From contig OX453275.1 of assembly GCA_949710005.1 (NCBI GenBank), positions 4,605,473 to 4,669,472 on the forward strand: a stretch of DNA of 64,000 nt, written 5' to 3'. The stretch's first letter is position 1; the number at the start of each line of letters is the position of its first letter. Positions 13,201 to 40,761 of this stretch are shown piece by piece. Made by a program: the position numbers and the translations under genes. A model generated the notes under the pieces. That model had not been told where the DNA came from. It did no database searches and saw only the letters and a program-made list of their open reading frames with translations. The stretch is from Ricordea florida (lineage: Eukaryota > Cnidaria > Anthozoa > Corallimorpharia > Ricordeidae).

Positions 13201-16200
13201 TTTCTTTACAGGTTATTAACACGTGTTCTACGGTCTTCTTTCCTCCACAAAATTCAATTCGTCTTTGTCTTGAAAACCAACCTAGGTTGAGAATCTTGCA
13301 AAGTTTGTAACCTTGTACAGAGGCATTCACGCCTTGCGAGAAGCGCGTACGAGAATATTCACATAGTGCGCATGCTCACTACTCACCTGATTATTACTAT
13401 GGCGCCATCGAACAAGTTGAACGCGTCTTTGATGTAACCGTAAGAACCGAGGCCAATGAGTTTCAAAAGCATCTCCAGAGCAAAGATGGCCGTGAAAATG
13501 TAGTTTAAAGTCTCCAGCACATCTGTCATTTTTTGGGGCTACAAAGTAGCAAATTTAAGAGAATAAGCAAAATAACTACCACTTGACGTGCAAATAGTAT
13601 AGGCAGATACATTTGAGTTCACATCAAAACATTAAAGGTAGAACTCAGTACCACTGGAAATGCAACCGAATAAGCATTTTGCCGTTGGTCATGATTAATT
13701 GCCAGGTACCATGCTAGAGAACACAAACTTTATTGGAACAACATTAAAAAGGAACTCGCCACTTTAAATGATGCGAGCCCTTAGTTTGTATCATTGTTCC
13801 TGTTTTCTTTATCCTCTGCAGCTATAGTGCTTTGTTACGGGTTGGCCAGCTGCAAAAGGCCTGTTGTGTCGAAAGCGTCGTGGATTCCCCCGCCTACCAG
13901 ACCCTAGAAAGGAAGCTAATCTACCGCAGGTTTAACTCCAGTCTTATATTGCGGCTGCACATTTATGGTGGGGATAGACAGTGTGGAGCTACGTTACCAG
14001 CATAACGAAACAACACACTGCCATCACCAGGCCTGGAATCCCCCTAAAACTGTCGATCGGAAGTCTAAACGCCAGCCACTTCACTACTCTGCCTTTACTT
14101 TTGTTAGACAAGAGGGCTCATAAAGTAACGACGGATTACCTGTCCATGGTATTCGATTCCCATGCTTAGTGTGTTTAAGAATATCGCTGCCATGATGATG
14201 TACATGAACCATTTGCTTTCCACGCTTGAGCGGCATCTGCGACGAAAACGTGAGCACACCTTTCGTTGGCGTCGAGATTCCAAGTCGTTAGTAGAAAGGT
14301 TGCTCTCACTGTCCCCATCCTCTTGATACACACACTCTGATTCATAATCAACTTTAATGTCTTCTTCAACGTGCTCCATTGCGCACGAGCAGGCATTCTG
14401 TATGGCCGTAGCTGCAGCTGTGCTGGCTGTAGCAGTTGCAGTTGCGCTAGAAAGAGAAGCCGCTGATAAAAACGTGTGGGCGGAAACATCCGCGACCGCT
14501 GATCTACCATTTATGGCAACTGCTGCTCTCGCGTTGGTAATCATCTCGCCGGGAATCGAACTCGACGGTTCTTTCCGAACAGAGCACGACGAACCTGTGA
14601 TTATGGAAATCTTTGGTATCGTAGTTGGCTGGCTATCACTCTCACCGTTCGACTGTGATTGGCCAGGCAGTTGACCTGGCACAGTTAGAGTATTACCAGT
14701 AGTAACATTTTTTTCCGGTTTAGGTTGAAGACGACGAAAGTGCGATGATGACGCCTCAGAGGTCGCGTTCACGCTTCCCGGATTCATGGGAATCTGCTGA
14801 CCCATTTCACCGCAAGGACATCCGGGATCTGTGCAGTGGACGTGATGATGGTAATGATGATGATGATGGTGATGATGATGGTGATGATAAACATGTTTGT
14901 TTTTCTTTCGTCTGCGGTTTTTGTGTTTGGAAGTTATTGTTCTTTTATTTTTTCCTTCACAATATTTCCAATGAAACCGCGAATTCATTCGTCTCTTAAA
15001 TCTTCTAACCAAGTGTTCTATGTATCTTAGTATTTCGACCCAGCAACCGTCTCTGTCATAGCGACTGCTGGAAATTGTGCTCGTACTCGTTCCTTGTCGA
15101 CGGCGACTCTCCTTCAATAGCTCATTTTCTCTTTGTTTAGTTTCTTGGAATTGTGTTGTAATTACAACCAAACATAGATTAGTCATAAAATACGACGCAA
15201 TCTGAAATGGGATAAAAAATGGAATGCACCTCAAAAGAGAGAATTACCCAAGAAAATTTTATGGTTTATGCATCAACGAATACAGAAAATAACTAATGGA
15301 AATTCTTGCATCTCTATATCCAACAAAAGAAAAACATGAACGCATGCAACTTTCCATATCTGTAATTCCAAAGCTCAGTTTGTGATTCTTTCAACGACAA
15401 AAAGTATTTAAAACGTGAATTGCAATATGAGATTCTGCCGTGTGTGCCGTTGCTTCTAACAGGCCCGAAACTCTATACAAGACATTAGTTATTGTCTTAC
15501 CACAATAAGAATAACAAAATAAATCCAGTTCCAAAAGCCATGAGCGTCTTGCACAAAATACATAATGTCCGACCAACCTTCCAGAGTAATAACCTGTAAA
15601 TATTGAAAATATGTACTTATTGACTGAGTAGGGGGACCTAGTCGCGCCTTGGTGTACGGGCCGTATACAGGAATTTTTTATAGTGTGTTTCAATAAAAAC
15701 GCGTGCGGGACCGTGCGAGTCGTATGATAAAACATGTTAAGCGCGCGGGACCATACGGGTCATATGATGAAGCAAATTACGCCCAGTTCAGTCTCCCAAC
15801 GTTTGATCAGGAAAACATAATACTTAAATAAAGTGTTTGTTGCATAGAGAACTTGCTCAAATTTTATGTATGATTCACTTTGGGACTGCTAAGTGACGAG
15901 TGTTTCCATATTTCCATATTTCTCCAGTTTTCTGTACACTAACTATCAGAAGGAAGTCTTGCCGACTCAGCACTTCGACAAGGAATCATCATGAGGCGGC
16001 TAATTCTGTACGCTGGGTGAACCTATACAATACTCGGTTTGTGCTTTTTTGGTTCAGGTTCTGTAAAGTCACTTTAAATCCAAACATTTATAAACCCTAA
16101 CTCAAAAGTGATTGAACACTACTTAGCCAAGCAAATGTTTTTAGGAAAATTTTAAATAACGGTATTGTTCAACATTAACTAACTGAACACCAACTAAACA

Positions 16201-19200
16201 TGTTTAGTTAAATCAGGTTTAAAAACGTGAAAATTGGTAACCGAACACTGGAAAACGGGCTTTTACACAGGATTCAAATAAACTTTAACATGTTCTTAAA
16301 TTTGCAGTCAACATGCTGCTACGTTTGTAGTCAGTAAGCAGCTTTTATAAAGGAGACAATTTTTAACCGTGTTTAACTTAAGAGCATTTAAACATATTTA
16401 AGCTTTAGTGTGAACAGGTTATAACATGTACACCGTGGATAACAAACTAAAAAAATCATTTCTCCAGCTTACTATTCAAAAAACTGAGTTTTTCTTGATC
16501 AATGCTAGGCAATCGCTTAGAACAAGGATTTATTAACTTACTTGAAAAATGGCTACCCAGGCAATAAATATGTTATCAAACCCAATAGCGCCCCAGAATG
16601 GGTTATCTCCCTTCTGCTTGCACACATTGTAATATTGGTTCCAGTTTATGCAGGCGTTGGAATTGTTCGAGTTTTGAGTTTGTTTTACGTAAGACTCGTA
16701 GTCCAATGTACAGACACGTGCTGAGTTCTCATACGACGGGATTAATCCACCGTCGCACGTAACCATGCCTGAGACATCAGGGGTAGAACACACGAAGTCC
16801 ATTTGGTCTGGTGGAATGTAAAACTCGGTTAAGTTGAAACTGCAATGGTAAAAGCAATCAACAATAAGAAAAACTTACAACGGAAACGAATAAACAAACC
16901 TAAATCACCAAATAAACTTAAAAAAAAAACAGAAAACAACGATCCAGAACTAGGAAACGTTAAGCAGCTAAAGCAAAGGTACGAGAAACCACGCGAACGA
17001 CTGAACGAACGAACGACCATGCATGGGGAGAAGACAAAAGAGAAAAGTTAAAGAATGAAAAAAACAGTTAGAGCACGAAAAAATAAACGAGAAAATGAAC
17101 AACCAACGCATTAACAGAAGAAAAACAAAAAATGCAACCTAAAACAAACCGACCGATGAACGCTTATGCGGAAAAGTGAATAAGCAGAGGAACACGTATA
17201 GAACGAAAAATTCAAAGTTAAAAGACAAATAAATGGAAAACGAATGATGACAATTGGCACTGTCTATGACTTCATGCGGTTTCCGCTGTTATCATTTAGA
17301 ATATTGTAGTCAAATAAACCATACTCAAGTGCAAAACACTAAACAAACAGGCACAGTGAACGATAAATTGTCTCAAAGAAAAAAGAGCATGGATCAAAAA
17401 TAAAACTTTGAGAACATTAACATTTTCAGTCAACTATGTGTTTGAATAAGCCAATAAATTTTGCCGAGTTAGAAAGAGATTAGTCGCTCCCCGAAGGGTA
17501 CTTGGCAGAGTTCGTTGTGGGCCGCTAAGGGAGGTCGTTCGTATTCTACTGTTTCACTCACTCATTCACTTACTCACTCAAATACTCAGCAGGGCCGGGT
17601 TGTTCGAAGCAGGGTTAAGGTAACCCAGGGTTAGTACGAAATTTAAATGCTGATATGAGAGCTTAAAAAGCACATTCAGAATAATCAGGGTTGTCAATTA
17701 GGGCCGGGGGCCGGGGGCCGGGGATTTCCCCCGGCTACTCACGGCAGGACCCCCGGCTACTTTCGTCGTTATATTAAACCAAACGAGCAGCCGAAAATTC
17801 TACATTAAAAAGGAGATAAGCGTGCTCCATAACCGCTTGCGGCTTTCCCCGGCAACTAACAACAAATACCCGGCAACTTGAAATCTCAGTGACAACCCTG
17901 GGATAATAAAGTTATTGTAGAGGAAAGAAACCCGGATTAAAATTTATCCCTGGATTAGCGCTAACCGGCTTTCGAACAATCGGCTCCAGGACAACATGAT
18001 GATTTCGCCTCCATAGGAGGCAAAGGTCGCAAAAACAATTGCTTCACTTTCTGATGAAATGCTACAGTAGAAGTGACAAAGCCCAAAGAAAGTCTGCGTT
18101 GAAGGCTTTCGATTTTATCACTTTCAAATAACGAGAAACGTACCCGGCTGCTGGGACGTTCGCCGGTAAATTCAGAAAACATCTTCCTCTTAATCTGCCA
18201 CTCCATAATTGAACACCAACTATACCGAAAATGGCAAAGATAAAGAAACATATGGCCAGAACATTCCATAACATTGGCAGTGTGTCCAACAACAAAGTCA
18301 CCAAGATACGAATACCTGACAAAGAAAAGGGACAATTGCACAATAAGAATGGTTCATAATGTAAAAACAACATCATTCAACAAACAATATACAATTTACC
18401 AGCAAGTAGCCGAGCTGAGCAATGACGGGTAGTATGAGGTGTAAATGATAATTATATAATATAACTTGGCTAATTAAATTTGACAGACAGAAAAATATGA
18501 TATATAATGTACTAATAAACAATTAATAAAGCTTCTCCTTGGTGACACAGAGAAACAACGCTGAGTCTAAATTTTAGTCGAAATTTCTTTTGAGTGCTTT
18601 AATACCCTGTTAGGCCCGGTTCATAAGTCTCATTTCTGCCGAACCGAATTCAATTCAAATCATTGAATTCGGCAGAAATTCGACGTCTGTATCAGCTCCC
18701 AAATTTCTACCGCACCTTCGACTGGTCTTGACGCACTATCCGGCAGAAGTGCGGTACCGATTCAAACGTCCCATTTCTGCCGTGTTGAATGTAATAGCTA
18801 TATTTACCTACATTATGTTAATGTCTGATAATTAGTAAATCAAGGCTTACCATGAAAATGGCGTCATGTCGAGCGGCTTACGCGCGGGAATTAGGCGAAG
18901 AAGAAAGCTCCACGTCTGAAGAGAGAGGAAAACCCTCGCAGGAAATCACATGCTACTAGTGCTGGAGAATTACTGCAGCTCTAATGATGACATTGATGAA
19001 GAAGTGTATAGAAAGAAAAATATTTTGGTCCTCCCAAAGAAGAAATAATCCTCCTTGTTGCAATACGCTATTGCATGTTTAATCAGCCAATGATTGCATA
19101 GATGGTTATTCCCAATACGGACCATTCTTTGTTTATATTCAATCAGCTAAAGATCGTGCTAAAAAAAATAATTATTCATGATGAAGTGAGTAGGTGTAAA

Positions 19201-22200
19201 GGGCCGAGTCTGGCGCAATTTAATAAATAAAAAATCAATTTTATAATTCTGGCGCAATTTAATAAATAAAAAAATTAATTATATTTGTTTAAGGTTTGTA
19301 GAAAAAATTTTTGAAAAAAGGTTTAAATAAATAAAAAATATTAATTAAAATGGATCAATTAAATAATTTATATGTTTTCAAATTAAAACTAATTGCTAGT
19401 GAGTTAAAAATTAAAGGAAGATCAAAAATGCGTAAAAAAGATTTTATCAATGAATTTAAAAAATTTAAAGAGGAGGAAATTATTAATTTAATTGAAAAAG
19501 TTTCTACAACTAAATCTTGTATTTGCGAACATGGTATGCTTAAAAGTTTTTGTAAAGATTGTGGCGGCTCAAAAATATGCATTCATGGAAAAGTAAAATA
19601 TCAATGTAAAAATTGCAAAGGGTCACAAATATGTGAGCATGATAGACAGAAAGCGCATTGTAAAGAATGTGGAATGATTAAATTATGTATACATAATAAA
19701 AAGAAAGCATATTGTAAAGATTGCGATGGAACTCAAATATGCGCTCATGGAAAACAAAAATTTTTTTGTAAATTATGTGATGGTTCTCAAATATGCATTC
19801 ATGGAAGAAATAAAGCATACTGTAAAGAATGTGGCGGCTCGCAAATATGTTTACATGATAGACAGAAAGGGCATTGTAAAGAATGCGGAGGATCACAGAT
19901 ATGTGAACATGGAAATAATAAATCAATTTGTAAAAAATGTATTTAATAAAAGATATAAAAAAATAAAATAAAATAAAATAAGAAAATGCTAGAATTATTA
20001 TTTAATTATCTTGATATTAATTGTGGTAAGGGGAAAAAATAATTAATATTGAATATTTTAATGATAACAAATTATGTTTTTATGAATTTATAGAATCAAT
20101 AAAAGAAGATTTGTTAAAAAATTTATCAAAAAATCGAAGTTTAATTTATGAAAAAGAAGAACTTTGTTTTATGTTTGGGGTTGATTATTATAAAAGAAAT
20201 TATGAAGGCGGTTTTTGTTATTTCAGTGATATAAATTTTGGTGTTAATGGTATATGTGTTGTTAACTTTGTAAAAAGTTTATTAGATTTTGGAAATAAAT
20301 ATTATGAATATAATGGTTATTATGATAAGGAATGTAATATTAATAAGTTTGATAAAAACTTTATTGTTGAGTTAATGAAAGTTACTATATGTGTAAATAA
20401 ATATAAATTATTACATAAAAAGAAATTTTATAAATCATTATATGATGAACTAATGCCTATAGCATGGCATCCATCTAGATATTTAGATTGGTGCATTGAT
20501 GTTGAAGAGTTAAGATGTTTGAAAAAATTATGGGGAGAAGAAGATTAATATTATATAATTATGTTATATAACTAAATATAATAGTTACATAACAAAAAAA
20601 TTTATCTAAATCTTAAACTAAAAGTTATTGGAGATCCTTTCAAATCAAATTTTTCCCATTCAGAATTTAATATACTTAAATCAAAGTAATTAATTAAGCT
20701 ATCATATTTTTTAATTGGAATTGTTGGGTAATCTTGTGATGGTATGTTTGCTAGCAATTGTGATGGTTGTATTTTTAAAAGATCAGATTTTTTACTATTC
20801 ATATATGACATTCTATTATCAACTATACTACACATTAATCTCAATGGTTCTTTTATGTTTATATTAATCTCATATATTCTGTTTTTAATTAAAATTTCTG
20901 GCAAACCCAACGAATTTTGTAAACCCCCGCTTAGTTTAATGTTAAATGATTTATTATTTATTATATAGTTAATATTATCACCGGTAAATATTAATATATT
21001 TTTACCTTTTTCAGTTATGCTAATTAATGTTTTTATATCATTAATTGAATATGTTCCAGGATTTATTACCATTAATTTATTATTGATTGTATCACTTATT
21101 TGCTCTAATTTTTTGAAAATAATCAATCTTTTGGATTTTATATCACAATCTAGTAGTTGTAATTCACTAACATATTTAATTGGCGGGTCTAAATAAATCC
21201 GTGTTTCAGAATCATACATTGTAATGCTAAACATTTTTTTGATTAAATTATATTAGTTTTTAGATTAATTAAAAACTAAGAAAATGGAAACTAATATACT
21301 TAAGAGGCGTATATATCTTGAACCTAAATATTTAGATAAAAATATTATGAATCATCTTTTAAAAACAATTAATAAAGTAATGGTTGGCGAATTTGATAAA
21401 GAATATGGATATATTATTTCAGCAAATCGTATAATAAAAATTGTAGATAATGAAAATACTTCTTTTGTTTTAAAATTTGAAGCAAAAACATATAAACCAA
21501 AAATTAAACAAAAAGTTGATGGTGTAGTATGTATGGTTTATGAAGAAGGTATTTTTATTAATGTTTTTGAAAAAATGAAAATTTTAATTCCACATATTTA
21601 TTTGAAAGATTATAAGTTTGATGAAATTTTTAATACATATGAAAATAAGAATAACAAAATTGGAATAGGAGATAAAATTAATGTTGAAATAAAAGCAGTT
21701 AGATATGATAAAAATGGATTTAGTTGTATTGGTTTTTTAGTTTAAATATTTTGTTTTGATTAATCTTTAGATTTTTATAATCAAAACATTAACGAAATAA
21801 AAACCAAGATAACGCCCCGCCTAAAATCATAAACAATATAAGATTGTTTTGATGTGAATCTATATAATTATTTTCTTGTTTAACTTTATCAGTTTTTGTT
21901 TCTTCAACTATTGGATTTAGTTTTCTCTGATTTGTATTTAATAACGAAACTTTTGAAGATCCTAAACTATGTTTTATTCCAACAGTTTTTGTTCCAACAT
22001 TTATTGAATTATTTATTCCAAAGTTCATATCTTCTGTTACCTTTTTCAAATCATTATTATATCCAATAATGCTTTCTGTATTTATTATTAAATTGCTTGG
22101 CATTAACCAAACACCAGGAGCTACAGCTAAATCAAGACGAGATTTTGATTCTTGAACCGCCGTTTGATATCTTTGAATTGATTTGGATATATCATTTTCA

Positions 22201-25200
22201 ACCACAGAACTTTCAAATAAAGATATAAAGTTTTCTTGGGTTTCAAAACCACCTCCTCCTTTACTAACAATTGAAGTTCTAGTATTAACTTGTGATCCTA
22301 AAACACAATAAACAAAAGCTTCAATCGATCTATTTATTCTTCCTAATCCGGCTTTTGTTAATCCATACCCAGATTCTGGTATAAACCACGCATATTGAAA
22401 ATCTACAAAATGATCATTTCGTAGCATAGATATTAAATTTCCATCTATTTTCTTTCCACCATCATCTGAAAATTTAGCTGAATTGCTTGGCCAAATATTT
22501 GCATCAGGATCATAATTTCTTACAATTCTAACGTTTTGATTTCCTCCTCCTTGTCCATGAACGCTTCCAGGAGGCACGTATCCTTTTCCATAGTTAATGA
22601 ATACATCACCAACTCCTCTATTTGCTCCTCCTTTCCATCTGAAATCAGCTAAAGGTTTATTTAATCCCTTAAAATCTTGATTATTGCTTAAGCCAAATTC
22701 TGCGCATAAACGATTATAAGAATTTTTGTTGTATGGATTATTTTTTAAAGAAAAAGTTTTTTCTCCGGGTAATGGTAAATATAATTCATATAATATTCTT
22801 CTTATAGTAAAGTAAATGTGAAATATAAAAAAACTTCTAATAACTCTTGGATAATTTAAACTATCATTTAAACTTACACCACATCCTGATGTTGCGCACC
22901 AAACTGCCATGTTTAATTGCTGAGGCCAGTGATTAATATTTGGTTTATTCAACCAAGCTCTAGCTTCTTTACCGCTAGTAAGTCCTACAGTTTGATTTTT
23001 AAATACATTTTTCATTTGTGCAGTAAAATGGTGTTTATCTGTAACATATATATCTAAAAGTATTAACATTTTTGTTACATCGTTTGCAAATTCATCGAAT
23101 TTAACTCCAGGTATTGGATATGTTTTGTTTGTAAATGATAAAGTTTTTGGAAATGAACTAAACTTAATTTTATTTTCTAAGTTCTTCGCTTCGCTCAGTC
23201 CTAAATCTTTCCATAATAATGTTTTTAAATCATTAGAAAGATTTTCAGTCCAAGTTTTCCCAGAAGGATCATCATTAGACATAATTGTTGTTCCATTAAC
23301 TTTCCATTTAATATACCCACCAAATGAATCATTAATAAATGTAAATTTATCAAGATTCGCGTTTGGATATCGGGTTTTGAAATCGTTTAATAACATCTTA
23401 ATTCTTGTTTGTATCAAATAACGAGATCTTTAAATTTGTAAGAATTAAGATGTAAATTCTCTTCTAATTCCAGCAAAACAATTACAACCAACATCAGTTC
23501 TTTCAAATGAAATCTTTAATGTGTTGTACCGGTTAATTCTTTTAATAGATCTTCTCGAACTTTTTTCCTGATTATAGACATGTCGAAGTTTTTTTGGCTA
23601 TCTTTTCTAAATTTTTGTCTAACTTCTTGTTTTAGTTTTTCAAACTTTTCAGATTCTGATAAAATTATAGAAAATTCTTCATCTGATATTTTCCCATCTT
23701 TAAAAGCTTTAGAAACCAAATCATTAATTGTGTTTAGTTTTGATTTTGCAATTGAAGATGTTTTTTCATGTTTACTGACTTTATTTGAAAGCCTTTTTGA
23801 AGCATAACCAAAACAAACAGATATTCCTCCAAAAATACCTCCTATTACGCCTAAAGGCACTCCAACAACAGCACCAAACCCAGTAAGAGATGTACTAAGC
23901 CCGCTTGCTGATAAGATAATTGAGAATAAACCTCCACAAATACTTATTTTTGTAAATACAAGTCTAGCTCTATTATATTTTTTTCTTACTTCTTCATAAT
24001 GTTTAATTTCTCTTTCAAGATTTTGTAATACTTCACCAGATTTTTGTAACCTGAAATTATTAGGATCTGTATTTTGTAAAACTGGATAAAGTCCGTTATT
24101 ATTAGTATGTGAATAAGTATTTCCGTTGTAATCTGCCATATACTTTTTACTGAAAAATGTGTTATCTTTAGATCTTAGTTTCGTTTTTTCTTAATATTTT
24201 CCACAAAATATAGAACCACGGCCATTATTAATAACCAAGCATTCTCGCCTAAAAATCCAATAACCTGGCCGGCTGTTTTGAATAGAAAGCTAACGATAGC
24301 TCCAACCATTCCTGGTAATATTTCCCCCAGTTTTTTACCAATATTTTTCAAACCATTCCCTACGCCTCTTCCTAAAGTAGATAAACCCTTTGAAAGATTA
24401 GAAACTATAACTCCAATGATAACGCCTGCAGCACTTAAAACAGCAAATGCTGTAAAACCATACTTTTTAAAGATATTCTTTAATCGCTCTCGCAATGGTA
24501 AATTTTTAATTATTTCGTCTTTTCTAGCTTGAATGTCTGATATTTGTTCATCGTTTGAAATTATTTTATTTCTAATTTGCTCTCTTAATTTATCAACCTC
24601 AGATCTTAATCTTTCATTGCTTCGCTCTAGATTTGATGCATTTAATTTATCCTTCTTATATTTATCTATTTCTTCTTTGTATAATTTTATTTCTTTCAAA
24701 ATTTTCTCTTGTTGTATTTTTAACTCTATATTCTGTTTAGCGGTTTGATCAAAAAGTCTTTTACCTTCTGAAGAATCTCTTTCCATATTTTCTTTTTCTG
24801 CTTTTTGGCTTTCAATTACTAAAGCAAGTCTTCTTACTTTTTCTTCATATTGAGCAATTTCTTTTGGATGTACTTTTGAGGCGGCGTCCAATCCTTGCAA
24901 TGCATTATCTAAATCTATAATTCTTTCATTGGCTTCTTTCAATACATTATCTAATTCTCTAATTTTTTCATTAGATTTTTTCAATTCTGACTCAGAATTA
25001 TTATATTTTTCCAGAATTGTTTCATAATCAGCGCCTAGAGCTTTTATCATTGTTTTTGGTAAATCTTCAAGCTTAAGAACTCCATCTTTATCAATTATTA
25101 TATGTTTTACTGCTCTTGGATTATTGCTAAATTTTCCTGATATACTTCCATCTTCCTCAAATTTAACATTAAATGTTGCGTTGTCTGGATTGAAGTCTGG

Positions 25201-28200
25201 TAAATAACGTTTTAGTTCTTGAACTGCTTCTCTCCTTCTGTCATATTCCTCATCTCTTTCTCCTAAAACATCACTTAGATTTCTTCTTCTTTCAGAAGGT
25301 ATATCCCATTCACTCCGGCTCATATCATAATCTCTATCAACAGATGTGGATGTGATTGTAACATCATCATCATCATCATTATCTCTTGATAAATCTTCTA
25401 ATGGTATATTTTCTTCCATGATTTTTTACTAAATCAGTAAGAAATGTTTAAATACTTTAGATGCGCAAATTAAAAATATTTTTTTATCATTTAATAAATA
25501 AAAAATGATTTAAACATTTAAAAAATACAAAAAAATATAAATAAAATGATGAACGAAAATACACAATTAATAGATATTTATAATTATAATCCAAAAGAAA
25601 GCATGGTCTTTTCTAAAGTAATTTTTGGAGAAATTCCAGGCACAAAACCAAAGATTGAATTTAAACGAATTAAAATTTTCACAAAAAATGAAGATGGAAC
25701 TGAAGGAGAACTTGTTATTCCAACTAGTCGTTTATATTCATTTGGAGTTTCAGTAAATAAAAGCCAAGAAACAAATAAAACCGTTGGATATGTTTTTCCT
25801 TTATGTTTATGGAGTGGAATTAAGCCTACCCCTGAAGAAGAAAAATGGGTTGATACTTTTAATAAAATAGTAGATTGCTGTATTGATCATTTATTAGAAA
25901 ATAGAGATAAAATTGATAAATACGAGTTGGAAAGATCTGATCTTACTAAAAGCAAGGGAGGTTTAAATCCTCTTTATTGGAAAATGGTAAAAATCACAGA
26001 TGAAAAAAATAAAACTTATATGCAAAAAGTGCCCGATAGAGGCCCAACATTATATGCAAAATTAATTGAATCTAAAAGACAAGGAGGATTTTTAACTAAA
26101 TTTTATGATATGGATACAGATGAAGAAATAAAAGTAGAAAATTTAATGCATAATAGCTGCTTTGCAGAATGTAATGTTAAAATTGAATCAATATTTATTG
26201 GTAATTTTATTTCACTTCAAGTAAAAATTTATGATGCTGCTGTAAAACAAGATGTTAAAATGAAAAGATTATCTCGTCGTAGACATAACCCAGAAGTAAT
26301 TATTTCTAACGCAACATCCGCATCTGAACTTATGGAAAATTTAGATTTAGACTCTGATGCTGGAAGCCTTATATCATTAGAATAAATATATAATTATTAA
26401 TCTTTTATGTTATATAACTTATGTATTACAAGTTATATAATAATTTATAATAATTTACTAACTGCATAACCTAAACCTAACATTCCAGCTCCAACATATA
26501 TCATTTCTCCATTCTTTTGATCATCGCTTGGTTTGTAATAATCAGAAAATTTTGGTTCATGCATTTGAACATACAATTCAAAAGCTTCATTTGTTTTTGA
26601 AATATTTTTTGATGCTTGATATTCTTCATCTTTTTTCTTATTTTCCCAATCAATTAATTTCTGCCTTTTTTCTTGATATTCAGCGTAATCTTTTTGATAT
26701 TTTTCCATTGCTTTATCGTGTCGTATTTTTTCTGTATCAGCTTTATCTCCAGATAGAGATTTTACAAGATAGTTTCCTCCAACAAAGGCGGTTGCATTTA
26801 ATAAAGCCCCTAAACCCATCATTCCTAATGATGCTAATGCCATGTTTGATTATTTTAGGTTCATCCCTTTAGGTCGGTAAAATCTTTTGATCCTCTAAAT
26901 ATGTTTTTAGATACATACTACCAGACAATACAGCTACCCATTTTGCATAATTTGCAATACTTGAAGATGGGTCATTCAAAAATGATTCTTTCATCATCTT
27001 TTTAGCAACATAGCCAACTCCGGCTCCTAAACCGATAAGTACAGCAGAATCAGTAACAGTTTTCACAAGCTTGTTTTCGTTTGACATAATTTTTTTACTA
27101 CATCAGTAAGAAACCTTTAGATATCTTTATGTAGTAAAAAATAATTTATAATTACATCATTCCAATTTTTGGTCTATCTTTGGGTTGTGGAACTTGGGAT
27201 AAATCAGGTATTCTGTTTTTATAATATCTCATAAACATATCAAATGCTGTAAAACCTATTCCAACAATTGATAATACGGCTGTAAAAGATAGTTCTGGAA
27301 GCCAAGCCTGATTAGATTCACTTTCTTTATTTTCATTTACATTATCTTCTTCACTTTTCATTTGATCCACGTTCCTTTTGTTCTCCCTAGCCAATGCTTC
27401 TTTTGCTTTTTTATTATATTCCGCTAATTTTTTACCAGCAGCAACTTTTTTAGGATCCTTATCCTTCTTTTTTGATGAATTAACTTCTTTAGGCGGTTCT
27501 CTAGTAATTTGCTCAACTACTTCAGTTTGTTCAGACATTATTATTTGGATGTTATTAATAATCCTTTAGATCTGCTTAGTTTACAGTATCAACACCTTCA
27601 TAATTATGCTTAGTATCTTGCTCAGTTATGCTAGAATTACCTGATTTTTCACTTGTAAATTGTTGAATTTTATCTATTTTAACGTGCTTAACAACCTGGA
27701 ATAATCCGCTAGCAAGTGCTACCAACCTTCCTCCTTTTAATGCAATAAGTCCTACAAAATTTGTAAGTTCTCGATTAACTAAAGCATCATTCTTCAAATC
27801 ATTACAAAGACATTCTATATCATCAACAGGAACAAATAAAGAAATAACTTTTGAAACAAATTGAAGAGATGAATCTACCAATCCGCCGTTAATTTTCTTA
27901 CCCATTACTGTTTGATAACGATTAAAATATTTTTCTACATCTTTTTCTGATAATTTTTTTATATCGCCCAAGCTCATTTCAACCCCCAGATATTCCTTTG
28001 TTGTTCCAAGCACCGCGAGAATGGCAAGAGATTCTTGTTTTATTTCAAGTTCATCATTATCTTTTCCCGATCCTCCCTGCAGTTGGTCTGTCTTTTCTTC
28101 AATATAATCTTCAATTTCTGTCATCTTTTTTAAATTACTTCAGGAATCTCTAAATAACAATTAAATGGATGACGTAAAGATAAACATAGTCTAGAATATT

Positions 28201-31200
28201 TTTCAGTTTTCAGGAGTTCTACAAATTTTTTACATGTTTCATAATCCAAATCGCCTCCATAATCTTCGAAAAACATCTTCATACCTTTCTGCGAAGGATT
28301 ATGGAAAGTAACAACACAGGCAACATTTTCTCGAAATGGTTTTGCTATGGATGTTAATTGTTGAGTGAGAACCCACATTGATAAACCATGATGTCTTCCT
28401 GAAAATGCTAAATCTATAAACTTATTAGATCTTTTCTTCAGATCAGTAGATACAGCGCAATCATCTAAAATCATTAATGTGTTTGTTCCAGAGAATAAAG
28501 TTTGGCAGTCGGTTAACAATTCATTAATCTCATCAATGTTACTAGCATCTGGTGATAATACATAGAAATGTTTATCTCCTCGTGCAAAATCATGATATGT
28601 TTTATTTTTAGAATAAGTTGGACAAATTAGAACAATATATTCAAAAACTTTTCTAAATTGTCCTCGGAGTTGATCTATGATGTATTTTGTTTTACCGCAA
28701 TTTGTTGGCCCAGTTATAATACAATGAAAAGGAATTTTATCTCGTAGTTCTTCCATGATTTTGTATCATAACTAAAGGTTTTTAAGTCAGTACTTAATTG
28801 ATTGTAAAGATGAATTCATAATCTCCATCATTGCATCTGCTACAACAAACATATGACATGTTACAGTTCCAGATCCGCTTTGTTTCCTTTTAATTTCTAT
28901 TTTTACACCATCGTGTGTATTATTTAGAGATAATCCTCCACCATGAATACCATTATCTGGGTGAGTTCTCGTATCAACCCAAAGAGCAAACTTATCCGCG
29001 TAAAATTCTTTTTCTTTCAATGAAATTTGTAAACCATCATCCCTATGATATCATTTTTTCACGGATTCCCAAAGATCGGATGGAATCATTCCCCTAGAAT
29101 ATATTCTATTTGGCACACCATCAACATCAATTTCAACGGAAGATATACCAGGATTATAAAAATTTTCAGAATCTCTTGCTCCTGCGGCTTGTGGTAATAA
29201 AAATAAACATAATACCCCAGTCATTGATCTTCTTGGAAGATTAATATGTTGATTAATAACACCATCCCCACCAATTGAAAATGTAAAAGTTTTATGTAAA
29301 GTAATATTTTCATAAAAGAATCCTTTACCAACTTGGTATGTTGATTGCGCCTCTTTCGCCAAGTATTCGCTTGAAATTGAAGAATATTCTAACTCTAAGT
29401 TTTTGATTGAATATGATGGTGTTTTTGTTGTATCAGAATAAATAAGAATATTACTAATTGGAGCAAGTGTAATCTCAAATATTAGATGATTTTCCAATGC
29501 TTTCGGGTAGAAAACTCCATGATCGTTTAAAATTGAGTGATTTATTGGTATTCTATACTTTGAACCGTGAACATTAGCGAGAGCAACTTCTTTTACATCT
29601 TGTGTTTTTGCATCACCAGCTTTTGTTCTAAGTTTTCTAATATTTAGTGAAGAAATACCTTGTTTTAATTTATCTTCTCGCTCTTCTTCGGTTAAAAATA
29701 AATCGCGATATGTTTGAAATAGATCATATCTTTGAGTATCTTGCAGTGTTTCTCCTCCAAAAAGAACTTTTAATCTGGTTACAAGATTGCTAGCTAAATT
29801 ATTAACAACCGTATTATTTGCATGACCCTCAACATCTAAATCAAATAGAAGAGATACACTTCCAGGCACAATCACTAAATTCTCAGAAAGTTTTGGAATA
29901 TTTATGTATAATGTTTCACCGGGGCTGGCTGTGGATGGATTTAGAGTAATTCTATTTAATGTTGATTCCGCTTTCAAACCAAATGGTTCTTTCGGAACTC
30001 TATTTGGATTAATTTTTTCTGACGTCATTGTAATTTATAAGATACTTTGGTTAACCTTTAAACCTGTGTTGTTCTATTATTATTATTCTCTAATTCGTTA
30101 ATAATTTTTAATAGTTTTTCTTTCAAATTTGGTATTTTACTTAACATAAAAAAAACAACACAATTAAAATCTTCATTATATAAATTTTCTTCCTCAAAAA
30201 TTTTATGTATAAAACTTTTAATAACAATTTTTGTTTGTGCTTTTACTTCTTCTTTTTTTCTATCTTCAATCATTGTAATTTATAAAATACTTTTGTTAAT
30301 TTTTAAATGAGTAACGAAAAGATACTTTCAAAAATATATTATTCAACTGAGGGTTATTGGAAAGGATATTCTGCAATCCCTAAATTAGCTGAAAAGGCGA
30401 AAGTAAGTGAAAATGAGGTAAAACAATGGTTGCAGAAACAGGCAATATGGCAAATCTATCTTCCAGCTCCAAAATATATACCTAGACCGCACTGGGTTAT
30501 GAATAAACCCAATCAAATTCACCAATCAGATTTATTATTTTTACCTCATGATAGAGTTGGAAGAAAAACATATAAATACGTATTAGTTGTTATTGATGTT
30601 GCTTCTAGATATAAAGATGCTGAGCCATTAACCACAAAAGAAAGTAGGGAAATATCAAAATCTTTTGAGAAAATATATTCCAGGAAGTTAAAATATCCAA
30701 AAACATTAATGGTTGATCCTGGGAAAGAATTTATGGGCGAGGTTACAAAACTTATGAATTATCATAATGTAAAAATTCAAAGAAGCGAAGCTGGAAACCA
30801 TAGAGCTCAAGCTTTTGTGGAAAACGCAAATAAAATATTAGGCGAAAGAATATTTAGTCATCAATATGCACAGGAAATGACAAGTTATGACCGTTCTAGA
30901 GTGTGGGTGAAAAGATTACCGGATATTCTAAAAACTTTTAATAATACACCAACTAGAATAACCGGTAAAGAACCTGATGATGCTATAAAAATGAAGGAAA
31001 TTTACATTAAACCAAAAAATTACCAACGTATCGTTGGACTTGATGAGGATAAACTACCTCCAGAGGTTAAAGTTAGATATTTATTATCTCCCGGCGAACT
31101 TGAAGGTGGAGAAAAAAGGCGAGCTACAGATCCTATTTGGAGTATTTTGATATATTATATTTTAAGGAGTGTGGTTTCGATTAATCAACCAGTTTTATAT

Positions 31201-34200
31201 TATATTCGCCCGGAGGGTGGGTCCGGCTCCACCGATTTACAAGATAGACCGCGACGAGGATTTGTTCGTGAAGAATTACAGGTTATTCCTTATGATACAG
31301 AACTTCCTCCAGATTCTGTTTTAGTAAGATAATGACCAATAGCTAAAGTATTTATTCCATCTTCACAAATTATTCTCTTGTCATCATTAGCGGATAAAGC
31401 AACTTTATTAATGATTTCAGAAAAAACATCATGTCGGTGGCTTCTAATTACTTTCATATGTCTGTATTGTTCTTTACATTCGAATAAACATTTCTTATAA
31501 TCATCAAAGCTTATGCTGTTTTTTACTACTACCTTTTTTATTCCCTTACATTTCTTTTCTTCTTCACCTTCATCCATTTTGTAAGAATATAGCTTAGCTC
31601 GTAGACCTACAAATTCTGTTATCTGTTTGCCTCCTGCCTCATCTTTAAACATATTGATTACTTTTTTGTTTACACCTGTTTCAATACCTGATGGATGATT
31701 TTTAGGAAAGTTGCTTGTGTCAAACTTATCCCTAACATCTAGACTTATATCTTTATAAAAATCCTTTGTTTCTATATCATAAGTAAGGCTGTCTGTATCT
31801 GTAAACAACAATTTTGCTTTTTCTCCATATTTTGATTTTATATAATTATAATGAAAATTATACATTATTGTTTTACTTAAATCTAAAATACACATACCTA
31901 AATAAACGGGTTTATTGAAATCTAACTTTGTTCTCTTCATTTGAATAGCAACAAGATTTTCACAAAAAATAGTACGATGTTGATAGTTAGGTTTTGATAT
32001 TAATTTTTTCGCATCTTTTTCATTAGTAACTAATTTAATATCAACCCTATTTCTAATATTTTCCATAGTTTTACCAAACACACAATTATTCATTAACTTG
32101 AAAAAATCTTTCTCAAAATCGTTATTTCCTTTAGCTCTGAGTTTGGTATTCAATTCAATGTATGGTTTTAACCAGGCTGATTCTTTGAATTTAATACCTC
32201 TATGAATTTTTGTAATTTTTAATCCAAGACTTTCATAAAATTTTAGTGTTTCATGATGAACAACATATTTTTCCTTATTATTTAGATTTGGAATTAATTT
32301 CTTAACCTTATTAACTAAAATTCTCTCTGGAGCAAGTGGATAATCATTATGTAGTTTGTGAAGTTGGGGTGAATATTCTAAATCAACCTCAAGTATGCAA
32401 GGAATATTTTTCCAGTTTGCAATCTCCTTTTCTTTCATCCATTTAAAACCATGAGTGGGTAATGGTTTACTCATTGCTCCTCCATATAAATTATTTGCAT
32501 CTAGATATATAATATAATTTATTACTTTGCTAATATCAAAATTTTTCATGTATTGATTGTTAGCTTTTCCATATCTAGTAGAAATCATAGATACTCCACC
32601 TCGAATACCTTCCTCAATCATAAGCAACATATCTATGTCAGTTAGCAGCTCTAAATTCACTTTTGTTATCTTTAATGCAGCATCCCAAGCTAATCCAGGC
32701 GCTGTATAATACCAAGCAGGATCCAACCCATAATTCTTTTGGCAAACATCTCTAAAGTTTTCAAACACATCCGCTAAAAGTATAACATCTGAATTAAGAT
32801 AAAGATCATGATAATCCCTCATAGTTTTCATATTGAAAGTTTTCCAAACATTTTGTGCATGTTTATAATCATTATCTGATATATTTTCATCATTTAGTAT
32901 TGAATAGAATGCATCCTTTGAAGGAAGTTGAGTTGTATTTAGTTTATCTAATCCATCCAACCAATCATATGGAAATACACCTTTTCTCAACAATAACTTT
33001 AATTCTTCACCTTTATAGAAATTATTTAAGTTTTTGAAAGATTCTTTTGGTAGATTAGCCACTAATTTTTCTATACTTGTTGACATAAATTTAAATGAAT
33101 CAATGAATCTAATATCACGCTTCACCTCAACCCGCTTACCTTCTTTATTTGTAAATTCATCAACCACAATCTGTTTTGTAAAAGAAATATACTTTTCTTC
33201 ATTATTTGGTATACAGTTTATTTTACCTTCTGTTACACCAAGATTTTTGATAAAAATATGCGCATCATATCCAGATAGATTATGAAATATTACAGGGAAA
33301 AACTTTGGTATCTTATAATTTAAGTTACATTCATTATGAGCCGCTCCTCTATACTTTCCTGTTAGATGACAGTGATCTAATACCTTATCTTCTCCTAATT
33401 CTCTCTCACATATATGACAGTGCGTTGTATTATCATATTCTTTTTTATCTATTTCTGATATATTCTCCGCTTTTTTATGAAATTTTGTATTATTATAAAT
33501 TTTCTTAATATCTTTCTCCAAATTATCTACAAATATCTTTGGTATATCATCATCTGGAGATTCTGCTGTGTATTTTACAAGCTTTGGAGGGAATATCTTA
33601 TCATCAAAAGACTTTATTAAATAGCAGAATCCTACAGGTTTATGTTTCTGGTATTGATTAGTAAAACTTTTTCTTTTATCTGGTTCGCATGTATGTATTT
33701 TCTCGTTAATACATTCAAAATCTGAATATACTACAAATGGTACGCGCATTTTTCTATTATAATTCTTGAATTTAATATATAAAGGATTTCCATCATCATC
33801 TTTTGGCATATTAATCTTTACTTCTTCATTTGTAGCGCAATATTCTAGATGTTTTTCTAGAGAAATTTTTGTAGGAAATGAATTATAGCATCTTCTACAA
33901 AATTCTCGTTTGTGTTGATTATTATTTATTTGCGATGAAACAAGTCTACTAAAATTCTTTATCCAACAGTAATGACTATTTCCTTCTTCATTCATCAATA
34001 GAAGTAATTCAATCAAATAGCCGCTTTGTTTCTTACTTATTCTAAGTGGATATATTTCACCTTTATCTTTATTATATCCATGCACATTAATCGAATAGTA
34101 AGAATTTTGTTTTTCAAACTTATCAATATCTTTCAATTTAGCGGGAAACTCTATTCCTTTCCATTTAAGCTTTTCAGAGTTCTCTCTCATTTGCTTATTT

Positions 34201-37200
34201 AATCTTTGTGGATCTTTATCTTTTGGAAATGCCGCAGAAGTTACTGCCCACTTTAAACATTCATGATCATTTTCGTTTTTAACATTTATAATTGCCTTCT
34301 TTAATTCTAATATTTTTGGTAATTGAATATATGAACTTCCTGAAATAGGCTCATAAGGATCGATGCTGATATCAAAATATTCAACTTTGTCAAATTTCCA
34401 ACCAGAACCTTCATTTTGATACTGTTCAACCAATTCAAGTAAGTAATTTACCATAGTATCAAATAATTCAGATAAATCAGTTGACTCTGTAACTATTTCT
34501 GGTTTTTTACTATGAAAGTTTCCAAATGATATATCACGCATAAATAATGCTTCACGATTAAATTTTTCAAACTTGCATGTAAATATAAATTTTACCTTTA
34601 TCGGTTTCTTTTGCTTATTAATTAGATCTATAACTTTTAGTTTGATATCATTTAAAAATTCTTTAGGGCCGTATCCTAATTTTCCATCTATCCTATAAGT
34701 TTTCAGATATCCTCTCAATGCTGTTTCTTTTTCTTCTATATTAAATTTTCTTTCTGCTAATTCATCACTTACACTATCAGATATAGTTGGCTTTTTTCTA
34801 GTTTTAAGTTTTGTTTGTTTTTTATTTGTAAGTTTTATTATATTTTCATTGGTTAAACTTGCAAGCTTTTTAGAAAACTCATCTTTATCTAACACCTTAA
34901 ATGAATAATTTCCCCAATTAAAAGTTTTGTTTAATTTTTGTGGTTTAAGAGGTTCTAGAATTGGAACATTAATTTCAGGTGTTGGCTCATCAAGAATTAA
35001 TCTTTTTGTTTTATTATCTAGAGCTGCAGAAATTTCTGGATTTTTACGCAACTCTTTTAGAATTTTATTATTAGATAATTTCTTACCTTTTTCTTTCATA
35101 ATTTTATTCAGCTGTTTTACTATCAATCTTTTTAAACTTTCACCATTTTCATCAATAGCTTTTTTTAGCTTTTCTATAAGATTTAATCTTTTTTTCTGAT
35201 CCATTTTAATTAATATTTTTTATTTATTTAAACCTTTTTTCAAAAATTTTTTCTACAAACCTTAAACAAATATAATTAATTTTTTTATTTATTAAATTGC
35301 GCCAGAATTATAAAATTGATTTTTTATTTATTAAATTGCGCCAGACTCGGCCCTTTACACCTACTAAGTGTGATCTGGTAGAAAAACCGTTAGGACGCCG
35401 AAATAAATTTCACTTGTAGGAAAAGTTGTCTTGTTGGAATATTTCCTCATACTGGAAACATAAAGCACATGAGGAAACATGGTGTCAGGAGTGGAAGTCT
35501 AATCTACGATCTGAAAACCGAAGAAATTCATCGATAATCGACAATCGCAGCGAATATTTTTGTGTTCACAGGCCACAAGTTCACCATGGAAGTTCTCGCG
35601 AAAGGACCAATCTTGGATTGGACAAACGACGGAAAACTTCACGAACGTTTCCTAGAATGGAAAAAGAAGGTGTCGATTTTATGCAGAGGTCTTGTGATGA
35701 CCAAGGCAGACCCAGAGTTTGTATGTCTATGCATTTATCAGTGGTCGGGTGAACGCGGACAAAATATTTTGGACAAGGCAACAATTTCATCCGATGATCG
35801 CAAGAAATGGGAAATACATCTCGGAAAGGTGGAGGAGCAATGCAAACCCAGAGGGAGCAAACTAGTCGCGGCTACACAGTACAAAGTGCTCACTCAAGGA
35901 GATATGGAATTACCAGAGTACATCGAAAAGTGCAGACTAGTAACTGATGCATGCGGATGGCCAGAAAACGCGAAGGACATGGCTCTCAGGAACGCTATTC
36001 TCCTCGGTCTAAAGAATCCAAACGTTTATCAAAAGTGTTTGGAAGAAGACCAGGACTCGCTTACCGCCGAACGTGTGATTGAAATTGCAACTCTTTTGTA
36101 CAACAGCGATCGTCAAAGATCAATTATGCAGACTCTCAGTACAGCAACTGCAGCAGCAACTGCAATACAGCAAGGATCAACACAGATTCACAAAGTGCAA
36201 ACAAAGCATCAAAAAGGCGGGAAATCAACGGAGTGGTCAAATCGAGACAAAACGTCTAAAGATAAAGAGCATGGTGAGACAAAAAGACAAACTTGTTTTT
36301 GTTGTGGAACAAAACCTGCTCACGCTAGATCGCAGTGTCCGGCCAAGGATGTTATTTGTTACAAGTGTGGAAAGAAAGGACATTACAAAAAGTGCTGCAA
36401 GAGCAAAACAGGTAAACAAGGTACCATTGGTGAACCTAGGCAGGTTCAAGTACATGGTTTACAAGCACCGCTGACAGGAGCCAGTGTCAATCAGACTTCA
36501 GTTCGTGATCCTACACAGAACTACCACATGATGTTTGGTCCACAGGTACTACAGGACGACCAGCACACAATGTTTCACCATATTCAGACTTTTCTTGTGA
36601 AGAGTATTAATGACACCTCAAGCAAGCATTTTCCGTTTTACTAATGATTTGTTGTAAATTTTTGACTTTGCTATTCATTGCCTTATTGTTAAGTGATCTA
36701 TTTATCATGCTGACGCGAAATGCTAAAACCTCAATGAATTATACTGGAAAGGACGCCAACACTGGAAAAGACGCTGATCCTTCGAACACTGAGTTCGTTT
36801 CTCTTGCGACTCTGAGAGAGATGCTCCAGATACAGGAGCGAATGTTTAAGAACATGTTTGAGTCGGTTTTGTCTTCCGTAAATAATAGAATTGACAATGT
36901 CGTTAAATCTGTCGCTGAATTGAAAGCGAGCTTGGAATATTCACAGCAAGATATCGACGACTTAAAGGAAGCTGCAGACACCATAGACGACATGGACGAA
37001 GAACTTGAGGACATCCAACGTGGCCTACATAAACACGAAGAAAAATTGGAGTATCTCGAGAACCAAAGCCGAAGAAATAATGTCCGTATTGATGGAATTC
37101 GCGAAGAAGACAACGAGACCTGGCTGAATACTGAAACAAAAGCGAAGGAAGTTCTTCAGGAAAAGCTGAACTTGAGCTTTGAACCGGTGATAGAGCGAGC

Positions 37201-40200
37201 GCATCGCACTGGAACACGATCAAGATCAGGTGCTGCTGATGGTATCAACACACGCCCAAGAACCATAGTGTGTCGTTTACGTGATTGGAAGCAAAAGGAT
37301 GAAATTCTTAGAGCCGCCCGAAGGATGAAACCGCCTGGTATATTTTTGAGTGAAGACGTCGCAAATGAGACTATGGAAAAGCGGAAAGCGCAGCTTGACA
37401 AGCTAAAGGAGGCCAAGAGAGCTGGGAAAATGGCATATTTTGTGTTGGACAGACTTGTTATAAAGGACAGACGTAGAGTAGAGTCCAGCTAAGTTCTATT
37501 ATTTATTTACTTACTCCCTTATTATACACTTAGTAATAATAATATGTCCCTAAATGCTTTACCGTTTAGTCATTTAGATGATAATGAATTTGCTGCGGTG
37601 ATTTATGAATTCAGAAATGGACCTGTTCATTTTGATCCTGAGAGACTATCAAACTTATCTATAAATCCTTTGACTTGTGATTTCGAACGGTTTTTAGTTC
37701 GGTCTGATGATCTGGACCCTGACATACATTTCAATATTGATGGTGGATGTTCTTATTATGTAGAAGATAAATTTAATGATACTCTCCAAAATGAAACCAT
37801 GATCAGTCGTGAACAATCGAACCATCTTTCGTTTTTCCATCTTAACATTCGAAGTCTTCAAAATAAGGTTGATGAATTATCGACTCTTCTGTCTACTCTA
37901 AATGTAAAATTTTCCGTTGTTGGGATAACTGAAACCTGGTTACAGGATTCGTCACTTGGAGTCAACATTGATGGTTATAACTTTGTTTACAAAAATCGCT
38001 CTGCCAAAACGGGTGGAGGTGTGGGTTTGTATGTGTCAGACAATCTTGATTTTAGAATTCGCACAGATATTTATGCTTATGAAGATGAGGTGATGGAATC
38101 ATTGTTCATAGAGATCATTCGATCCCATGAGAGAAACGTTATTGTTGGTATAATTTATCGCCCTCCAAATCAAAATGTAAATGATTTCGTGATTAGAATG
38201 AACGACGTATTAGGGAAAATATCTCGGGACAACAAAATATGCTATTTAATGGGAGATTTTAATTTGAATTTGCTGAACAATCAAAATCACAACGCCACCG
38301 GGGAATTTTTGGATGGTCTGTATTCTCATCTGTTTTTTCCCTTATTCACGCTGCCTTCCCGAATTACTTCTCATACTGCTACTCTGATAGACAACATTTT
38401 TTCCAATCATGTCGAGCATAGTTATTTGAGGTCTGGGCTATTGATAACTGACATTTCGGACCATTTGCCAATATTTTCCATTTCCCTTGATCATATGCGT
38501 ACCCATCAATGCCAAGAAAGTTTATTTGTTCGTGACAAAAGCGAACAAAATATATCCAGATTCTTAGAGGAGTTAGATTGTATTGACTGGTCTAACCTCG
38601 ACGGGTATAATGATCCTAAAATCTGCTATAGTAAATTTCTTGAGCGATACACTAAAACTTACGAAAAACATTTCCCTTTGAAGAAACTAAAACGCCGCCT
38701 TCATCCGAGGAGGCCATGGATATCTCAGGGCCTTCTTAAATCTATCAAGCATAAAAATAAATTATATAAGCGATATCTTTCAAATCCTTCTCCTCAGAAG
38801 GAACAGATATACAAAACATATAAGAACAAATTAAATCACTCCTTACGAATTGCGAAACGCTTATATTACGATAAGAAGTTAAACGAGTCAAAATCTAATA
38901 TGAGAGCCACCTGGCGTCTGCTGAATGAGGTTCTAAATAATAAGAAATTGAGACCCAAACCCAACTCTGTTTTCAAGGTTGATGACCAAGAAATTTCTGA
39001 CCCAATGGAGATTGCAAATCGATTTTGTTGTTACTTCAGTAATATTGGACCAAACCTTACCAAACGGATTCAATCTGCCACTTCGCATAAAAATTTTCTT
39101 TTTGGCGATTTCCCTCAGTCTATGTTCCTAAATTTAGCAACTCAGGAGGAGATTGTGGATATTGCATGTAAGTTTCCGGCGGGAAAATCGGCTGGGTATG
39201 ACAACATTCCCATGTCTATTATAAAACGATCTATTGGCAGCATTTCCTCTCCACTAACTCACATTATAAATCTCTCTATTATCCACGGTATCGTTCCAGA
39301 TGAATTGAAAATTGCTCGTGTAGTTCCTATTTTTAAATCAGGTGATAAAGCTCTCTTCAGTAATTACAGACCTATTTCAGTTCTACCTTGCTTTTCAAAG
39401 TTTTTGGAGCGAATAATTTACAACCGTATCATAAATTATCTCAATGACTTCAATGTACTCTGTGATAATCAATATGGCTTTAGGAAAAATCGTTCCCCAA
39501 GCCTCGCGCTTATCGATTTGTGTGATAAAATTTCTTCTGCTTTTGATAGAAGAGAACATGCTATTGGAGTATTTTTAGATCTTTCGAAAGCATTTGACAC
39601 GGTAAATCATGTCATCCTTTTTGACAAACTGGAGCATTATGGGATCCGTGGTCTGGCACTAGAATGGGTAAAAAGTTATTTCTCTGAGAGGAAACAATTT
39701 GTCGAATTTAACAATGTTAGGTCTTCCCCACAGGGGATCTCCTGTGGGGTGCCTCAAGGCTCTATTCTTGGTCCTTTATTTTTTATCTTGTACGTCAATG
39801 ATTTGAACAACGCTTCCATACTTGATGCAATTTTGTTTGCTGATGATACAAACTTATTTATCTCTCACAATGATCCTTTTTACCTAATTAATACATTAAA
39901 TAGAGAATTAAACAAACTGTCAACTTGGTTTGCCGCAAACCGGCTTTCCTTGAATTTATCCAAGACTAATTTTATGGTATTTAAGCCTTGGCAAAAAAAG
40001 CAATCGTTTGGATTTCAAGTTTTTATAAACGAGCAGCCTATCCTTCGTGTTTCTGAAACCATGTTCTTGGGTGTCTTTATAGATGATAATCTGACCTGGA
40101 AACCTCATATATCTCTATTAGCCAGTAAATTATCAAAATCCATAGGAATCATTCACAAATCTAGGTTTTTTCTCTCAACTCAATCTCTCCGTACCTTGTA

Positions 40201-40716
40201 CAATTCAATGATACTTCCATACTTATACTATTGCAATCTAGCTTGGGGTGGCACCTATAAAGCGAACCTTGAAAGAATTGTAATCTTACAGAAACGTGCG
40301 CTAAGAATTGTGAACAACTCTACCTACGATGCCAACACTAGTCCCATCCTTAAGGACCTTAAACTTTTAAAATTTCATGATATCCATTCGTTTCAATTAG
40401 GTTTTTTTATGTTTTCACTCAAGAACTCTACACTCCCTTCCAAATTCAATAACCTCTTTCTAATAAACAGTCAAATCCATAATTATAATACTAGGAATGC
40501 CCATTTATTTCGTTTGCCACTATGCAGAACGAACACCAGACAGTTCTCAATTTACTTCCAAGGTCCAAAGTTTTATAATTCGCTAAATTCTACAATAACG
40601 GCTTCGTCCTCCTCTGCTTCTTCTAAAAGAAAGCTTAAAGAATTCCTTTTCAGTACGTATTAGCTTCAGTATGGGTCCAGTATGGCACTAAGTAGATTAT
40701 TAGATTAATTAATTTA

Positions 40717-40761
<45 letters not shown>

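Follow-up and report, generated by a model that had tools for sequence, protein, structure and literature searches.

A virus-type Rpb7 gene kept under selection in a Polinton family of the corallimorpharian Ricordea florida

To our knowledge, Polintons are generally treated as leaving transcription to their host. A gene in the genome of Ricordea florida raises the question of whether an animal Polinton can carry a subunit of an RNA polymerase, where such a subunit would have come from and what it would do. The gene lies in the window, by which we mean the whole stretch of 64,000 nucleotides that was analysed (assembly GCA_949710005.1, contig OX453275.1, positions 4,605,473 to 4,669,472 of the forward strand). 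An earlier note, made from the letters of this stretch, had aligned the 153-residue product by eye with Rpb7.

Results

Identity and domain features of the Rpb7-like protein

The likeness claimed by the earlier note, across both halves of Rpb7, is borne out by the profile search and the structure prediction that it had proposed. The C-terminal S1/OB half gives an S1 match in Pfam above the cut-off (E 6e-8), the SHS2_Rpb7-N match lies below its cut-off (E 5.5e-4), and the predicted fold (monomer models) matches Rpb7 confidently over its full length, SHS2 and S1/OB domains both included. The SHS2_Rpb7-N family is also annotated, as a precomputed assignment, on relatives such as P0006. The product is thus confirmed as a true Rpb7 homologue.

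Cellular Rpb7 docks on the polymerase core through a tip formed by the K1 loop and the tip loop (PMC10382679; this and the other papers cited by PMC number are drawn on as excerpts). In the alignment the K1 loop of the Polinton protein is retained and its tip loop shortened. Of 119 family members aligned, 11 have a tip-loop segment of 14 residues and the other 108 one of 19-20 residues; precisely these 11 belong to the 19-row tree clade described below. The C-terminus corresponds to residue 163-164 of human Rpb7 (172 aa), and the protein, ending earlier, lacks the last Rpb4-contacting strand (contact list from the excerpt of PMC10382679). Wild-type yeast tolerates the loss of tip-loop residues 63-67, which is lethal in a strain without Spt4 (PMC10382679); trimming of the tip loop therefore need not abolish docking. 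The partly lost tip loop argues against a standard dock on polymerase II. Because the K1 loop is kept, the tip loop trimmed and the C-terminus early, we read the Polinton protein as an Rpb4-less stalk. The earlier note had taken a lone Rpb7 as a sign of hijacking; the subunit does stand alone among the ORFs scanned, but absence of Rpb4 is normal for such viral stalks, those of the vaccinia and African swine fever virus polymerases lacking it as the element does (excerpt of PMC10881513).

Architecture of the element

The gene sits in an element of Polinton type (19189-35365; Table 1), bounded by terminal inverted repeats of 188 nt that are 96% complementary. The assignment made by the earlier note is supported by these repeats, the rve integrase and the Pox_A32-type ATPase; the capsid and polymerase genes are represented by a Capsid_N match below the cut-off and by motifs, respectively. 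The AAGTG pair at the element borders is likely a target-site duplication, although that of Polintons is 6 bp long. The start codons of both terminal genes fall inside the inverted repeats (19350-19376 and 35178-35204), so that one upstream sequence is common to the two. Outside the element, a T-type calcium channel exon lies to the left (18062-18376, E 6e-27) and marks the host as an animal, as does more tentatively a second calcium-channel exon on the same side, with a weak Ion_trans match below the cut-off (14104-15234, -); the ORFs to the right (35426-53449) are retrotransposon-like as judged by eye.

Table 1. Features of the element and its borders, in order of position in the window
Feature	Position	Strand	Remarks
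AAGTG, left direct-repeat copy	19184..19188		5 bp; right copy 35366-35370; sequence read
Left terminal inverted repeat	19189..19376	+	starts AGTAGG; holds start codon of leftmost gene; sequence read
198-aa protein, tandem Cys/His repeats	19350..19946	+	weak Rho_N match, E 1.2e-4, below cut-off
145-aa ORF	20111..20548	+	no Pfam family
Hairpin, 12-bp stem, 7-nt loop	20562..20594		between convergent 145-aa and 210-aa ORFs
210-aa ORF	20602..21234	-	divergent from rpb7, start codons 49 nt apart; no Pfam family
Rpb7-like gene, 153 aa (SHS2 + S1/OB)	21284..21745	+	Pfam, fold match
Hairpin, 11-bp stem, 15-nt loop	21752..21788		between convergent 3' ends of rpb7 and 542-aa ORF
542-aa ORF	21789..23417	-	no Pfam family; probable structural gene
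DUF2738 protein	25546..26385	+	Pfam PF10927, E 9.3e-58
Hairpin, 12-bp stem, 5-nt loop	26410..26440		between convergent DUF2738 and 132-aa ORFs
DNA-packaging ATPase, Pox_A32 type	28130..28756	-	Pfam, E 3.8e-11, above cut-off
Major capsid protein (MCP; weak match)	29051..30028	-	Capsid_N, E 5.3e-4, below cut-off
Retrovirus-type integrase (rve)	30307..31332	+	Pfam, E 9.3e-10
1304-aa protein, PolB by motifs, with endonuclease-VII-like insert	31290..35204	-	Endonuclease_7, E 2.1e-5; alignment
Right terminal inverted repeat	35178..35365	-	holds PolB start codon

The capsid protein of the window has no match in NCBIfam, nor in the PDB by sequence, and its frame is broken after 325 codons, the remainder lying in another frame (28787-29020, -). 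Among 20 other copies sampled, the frame is open for 410-413 codons in seven, the piece examined ends earlier in 12, and the frame of one (L081) stops at 102. The 1304-aa protein, which none of the Pfam, NCBIfam, PHROGs and PDB searches called a polymerase, is one that we take to be a B-family DNA polymerase from its motifs; its N-x-x-GK and DTDS blocks also occur in the divergent counterparts of copies L082 and L085 (alignment). Within this ORF the endonuclease-VII-like segment covers residues 578-628 (33321-33473, -; PHROG endonuclease VII, E 1.9e-6). No protease family was found among the ORFs scanned, a search that a divergent maturation protease could escape, and no other RNA polymerase subunit, catalytic ones included, was recognised among them.

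Copies, selection and linkage in the genome

The same genome (538 Mb, 48 contigs) holds 209 rpb7 candidates, of which the best 150 were scored, at identities of 64-100%; 148 of the 150 are free of stop codons, in a sample where decayed copies are under-represented because it comprises the best of the 209. Substitution rates were compared among 64 copies, namely the window and 63 of the other 149 scored copies picked to span the identities; L001 (the window itself), L004 (which has a stop) and the duplicates L009-L011 were left out. Median dN/dS for rpb7 was 0.22-0.45 in all eight identity bins (2004 of 2016 pairs, which are non-independent), compared with 0.08 for MCP (19 of 20 pieces), 0.13 for the integrase (20 of 20) and 0.19 for PolB (18 of 20). 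The gene is therefore constrained, but less tightly than these three, and an intact frame is very improbable under neutral drift.

The earlier note had suggested looking for the gene beside polymerase and capsid genes in other Polintons, and within this genome it is found there in every copy sampled: in 20 of 20, drawn from different subfamilies, MCP, integrase and PolB all lie within the piece 7-11 kb downstream of rpb7, and that piece reaches the ATPase in six. Open frames, constraint and linkage together make rpb7 a lasting part of this Polinton family. In two of the 20 copies (L082, L085) MCP is 94-95% identical to that of the window and PolB only 22-23%, which suggests an exchange of the polymerase gene within the family. 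In copies L098 and L108 a relative of the 145-aa ORF (35-41% identity) stands at the junction where the window has DUF2738, apparently a cassette exchange beside the hairpin.

Hairpins at convergent 3' ends and upstream boxes

AT-rich hairpins occupy three of the four convergent junctions of the element; at the fourth, integrase/PolB, the genes overlap and no such hairpin is found. The hairpin total of the element (16 with a stem of at least 10) falls inside the range of Markov controls (10-20), so only placement and conservation are claimed, six of the 16 lying outside ORFs though ORFs cover ~94% of the span. At the rpb7/542-aa junction a stem of at least 10 is present in 62 of 64 copies versus 21 of 256 control pieces taken from within the gene, and in one copy group the rpb7 stop codon sits in a hairpin arm with the hairpin retained. 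To the left of the 210-aa ORF, all ten evaluable cases, the window included, show a junction stem of at least 11 (one further case was not anchored). At the DUF2738/132-aa junction the same holds for eight of nine evaluable cases, the ninth having a stem of 9 (two were not evaluable), even where the left neighbour is a different gene; in L090 the best pairing there differs from the usual one. Among copies L089-L108, which were compared, L102 keeps the hairpin in place at this junction with an unrelated sequence. Compensatory two-sided changes occur in two of 11 pairs (12 hairpins), and one pair is broken in two sequences. Mimivirus mRNAs end at a hairpin without sequence conservation and Sputnik has the same signal (excerpts of PMC4402537 and PMC6723459), and the 3' hairpins of the element resemble these mRNA-end signals.

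All 20 of 20 copies have a TTTAAAG or TCTAAAG box ~35 nt ahead of MCP, these boxes being related by descent and not independent. In the window, TTTAAAG, TCTAAAG or CCTAAAG precedes several genes by 30-45 nt, namely MCP and the ORFs that end at 24139, 25419, 26843 and 27538 (-). The recurring TTTAAAG-type box is possibly a late promoter element; TCTAAAG occurs eight times in the element, and only three of these lie at most 45 nt upstream of a same-strand ORF.

Relatives and origin of the gene

Among 5.8 billion proteins searched with a profile, 195 Rpb7 relatives came up, the best 120 of which (147-256 aa) sit on metagenome and other contigs of up to 110 kb. In a tree of 129 rows, built by a quick method with SH-aLRT support only and rooted on two cellular rows (human and yeast Rpb7), a group with 100% support unites the window with eight genome copies, P0002 and P0003 and nests in a 19-row clade (96%) of short, metagenomic virus-type Rpb7s; human and yeast Rpb7 fall far outside this clade, with long branches between. 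Since the relatives were collected by similarity to the viral form, the phylogeny, another check that the earlier note had proposed, shows nearness to virus-type Rpb7 and is in itself no proof of the direction of transfer. The genome copy L066 is almost identical to P0003; the source of P0002 and P0003 may thus be the same or a near species. In the viral fold search the named top rows were mostly Rpb7s of giant or large DNA viruses. On the sequence comparisons, the closest relatives of the Polinton protein are short virus-type Rpb7s, not cellular ones. Capture of the host's own Rpb7 was considered, and is disfavoured by the tree with its two cellular sequences, human and yeast, as root.

The 60-110 kb contigs that bear metagenomic relatives are presumably giant viruses, judging from their size and the viral fold search. 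No relative was confirmed when IMG/VR viral contigs were scanned with the Rpb7 protein, three Rpb7 alignments and PolB, and the ATPase alignment found one locus there (L109, a 53-residue match at 36%). Genome contigs scanned with the Rpb7 alignment, phage records searched with Rpb7 and plasmid records searched with PolB yielded none. The ATPase has 992 relatives at E<=1e-10; among the best 120 of these, inspected by eye, many ~80% identical proteins lie on contigs of 0.1-3.6 Mb, while among the best 120 of the 195 Rpb7 relatives, likewise inspected, none lies on a contig of more than 110,505 bases, which suggests that most related Polintons are without rpb7. Only the contig sizes 920 and 2192 are shared between these two sets of 120; these contigs are short and from different sources, and the match was dismissed as coincidence.

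Discussion

Comparison with known systems

With its SHS2-OB fold the Polinton protein resembles the RPB7 of Mimiviridae, the Rpb7-like protein of iridoviruses, vaccinia Rpo18 and D339L of African swine fever virus, which measure ~140-160 residues in their short forms; RPB7 also stands in a Mimiviridae gene list (excerpt of PMC3620924). Giant and large DNA viruses encode their own catalytic subunits, whereas none is recognised in the element. Cellular Rpb7/Rpo7, in the stalks of polymerase II and the archaeal polymerase, has a longer tip loop and tail. The element shares with Polintons and adintoviruses (Mavericks) its terminal inverted repeats, rve, packaging ATPase and many copies, together with a weakly matching MCP and a PolB recognised by motif, and differs from them in rpb7, the Cys/His-repeat and DUF2738 genes, the conserved 3' hairpins and the lack of a recognised maturation protease, which nearly all Polintons have (excerpt of PMC4642659). 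Meldviruses likewise join PolB and integrase to virion genes resembling those of larger DNA viruses, and in the text consulted from the paper on them (PMC11071296) 'Rpb' is absent and 'RNA polymerase' refers to RNA viruses alone. Mavirus integrates and resembles Polintons in its gene set, and Sputnik has the same hairpin poly(A) signals as its giant virus (excerpts of PMC6723459 and PMC4642659); unlike the element, both have protist hosts.

The earlier note had set the Rpb7 of large viruses against the usual Polinton gene set; rpb7 is indeed foreign to that set, but the contrast with large viruses gives way, the nearest relatives being virus-type Rpb7s. A literature search of 5.39 million papers on Polintons and Polinton-like elements with Rpb7 or RNA polymerase subunits, its coverage mostly outside subscription papers, found no Polinton Rpb7, its sole Polinton and Rpb7 match concerning a Drosophila gene; a search on virophages found no virophage Rpb7, the match being the Mimiviridae paper. 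The excerpts of PMC11071308, PMC11071296, PMC10328495, PMC10120064, PMC12220804, PMC7805220 and PMC4642659 mention no Polinton Rpb7.

A proposed role and its alternatives

We propose, and give an even chance, that the Polinton Rpb7 is a one-subunit virus-type stalk for transcribing the element's own genes. The gene would have been taken up from a pool of giant-virus-type genes and kept by selection in a large Polinton family. Its SHS2 domain, which retains the K1 loop and has a shortened tip loop, would attach to the Rpb1/Rpb6 dock of a multisubunit polymerase, and its S1/OB domain would hold the emerging transcript, as the OB fold of Rpb7 touches nascent RNA and the stalk aids 3'-end formation (excerpt of PMC10881513); the genes of the element would then be transcribed and terminated at the AT-rich 3' hairpins. 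Since no catalytic subunit is recognised and the DNA is nuclear, host polymerase II is the likelier partner, and would be bound in place of, or beside, host Rpb7. What the earlier note had suggested, that polymerase II is hijacked or its mRNA-imprinting role put to use, is a possibility. Against the stalk reading, polymerase II may be docked less firmly by a partly deleted tip loop, MCP, integrase and PolB are all under tighter constraint than rpb7, and the integrase/PolB junction overlaps without a hairpin.

More boldly, the partner could be the polymerase of a helper giant virus infecting the same animal, which would transcribe the element, at least late, in the manner of a virophage, with Rpb7 as a matched adapter and the hairpins and upstream boxes as helper-type signals. 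The giant-virus type of the protein (tree, viral fold search), its tail, which stops where those of other virus-type Rpb7s stop, the box upstream of MCP in all 20 copies, and hairpins fixed in place yet replaceable in sequence (L102), as in the mimivirus and Sputnik signal (excerpts of PMC4402537 and PMC6723459), all favour this. We nevertheless hold it unlikely: the hairpins and boxes have been tied to no particular giant virus, only the placement of the hairpins is notable and they are missing from one of the four convergent junctions, and the tip-loop segment is unlike that of other virus-type relatives too. We also know of no helper virus for this host. The fuller version, a virophage-like Polinton family in an animal genome, with a giant-virus-type stalk and mRNA-end hairpins, that would depend for both activation and expression on the transcription machinery of a DNA virus that infects the animal, strikes us as quite improbable.

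The protein might instead act off the polymerase, as an Rpb7 derivative that binds the hairpins of the element or packages, protects or translates its mRNAs. The better Pfam score of the S1/OB half relative to the SHS2 half, the trimmed tip loop and the lack of any further recognised polymerase subunit among the scanned ORFs would fit, but the whole SHS2 domain, which does the docking in Rpb7, is retained and the protein fits Rpb7 at full length, so that we regard this as rather unlikely. The solitary subunit, with a constraint weaker than that of virion genes, as in host-facing proteins, would also suit a decoy that occupies host Rpb4 or the stalk dock, gives transcription no support and in this way reduces or diverts the synthesis and decay of host mRNA; loss of the last Rpb4-contacting strand (contacts from the excerpt of PMC10382679) speaks against it, and we give it little weight. 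That rpb7 is a functionless passenger spread along with the element is scarcely credible: its constraint is looser than that of the virion genes, yet the frame is open in nearly all scored copies, which neutral drift would very improbably leave, and dN/dS is well under 1 between subfamilies.

Significance

As an observation, the presence in an animal Polinton family of a virus-type Rpb7 under selection is genuine and well supported, its mechanism lying between polymerase II and a helper virus. It suggests that the element interferes with transcription though no polymerase of its own is recognised. If the proposed role is true, at least ~150 genomic copies with a selected giant-virus-type subunit would mean that Polintons can steer the polymerase that reads them, or the ends of their mRNAs. 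Naturally free of Rpb4 and reduced at its tip, such a stalk would offer a test case for Rpb7 acting alone. The finding would also bear on the piecemeal gain of transcription genes by large DNA viruses, and would tie Polintons to giant viruses through gene flow in an animal.
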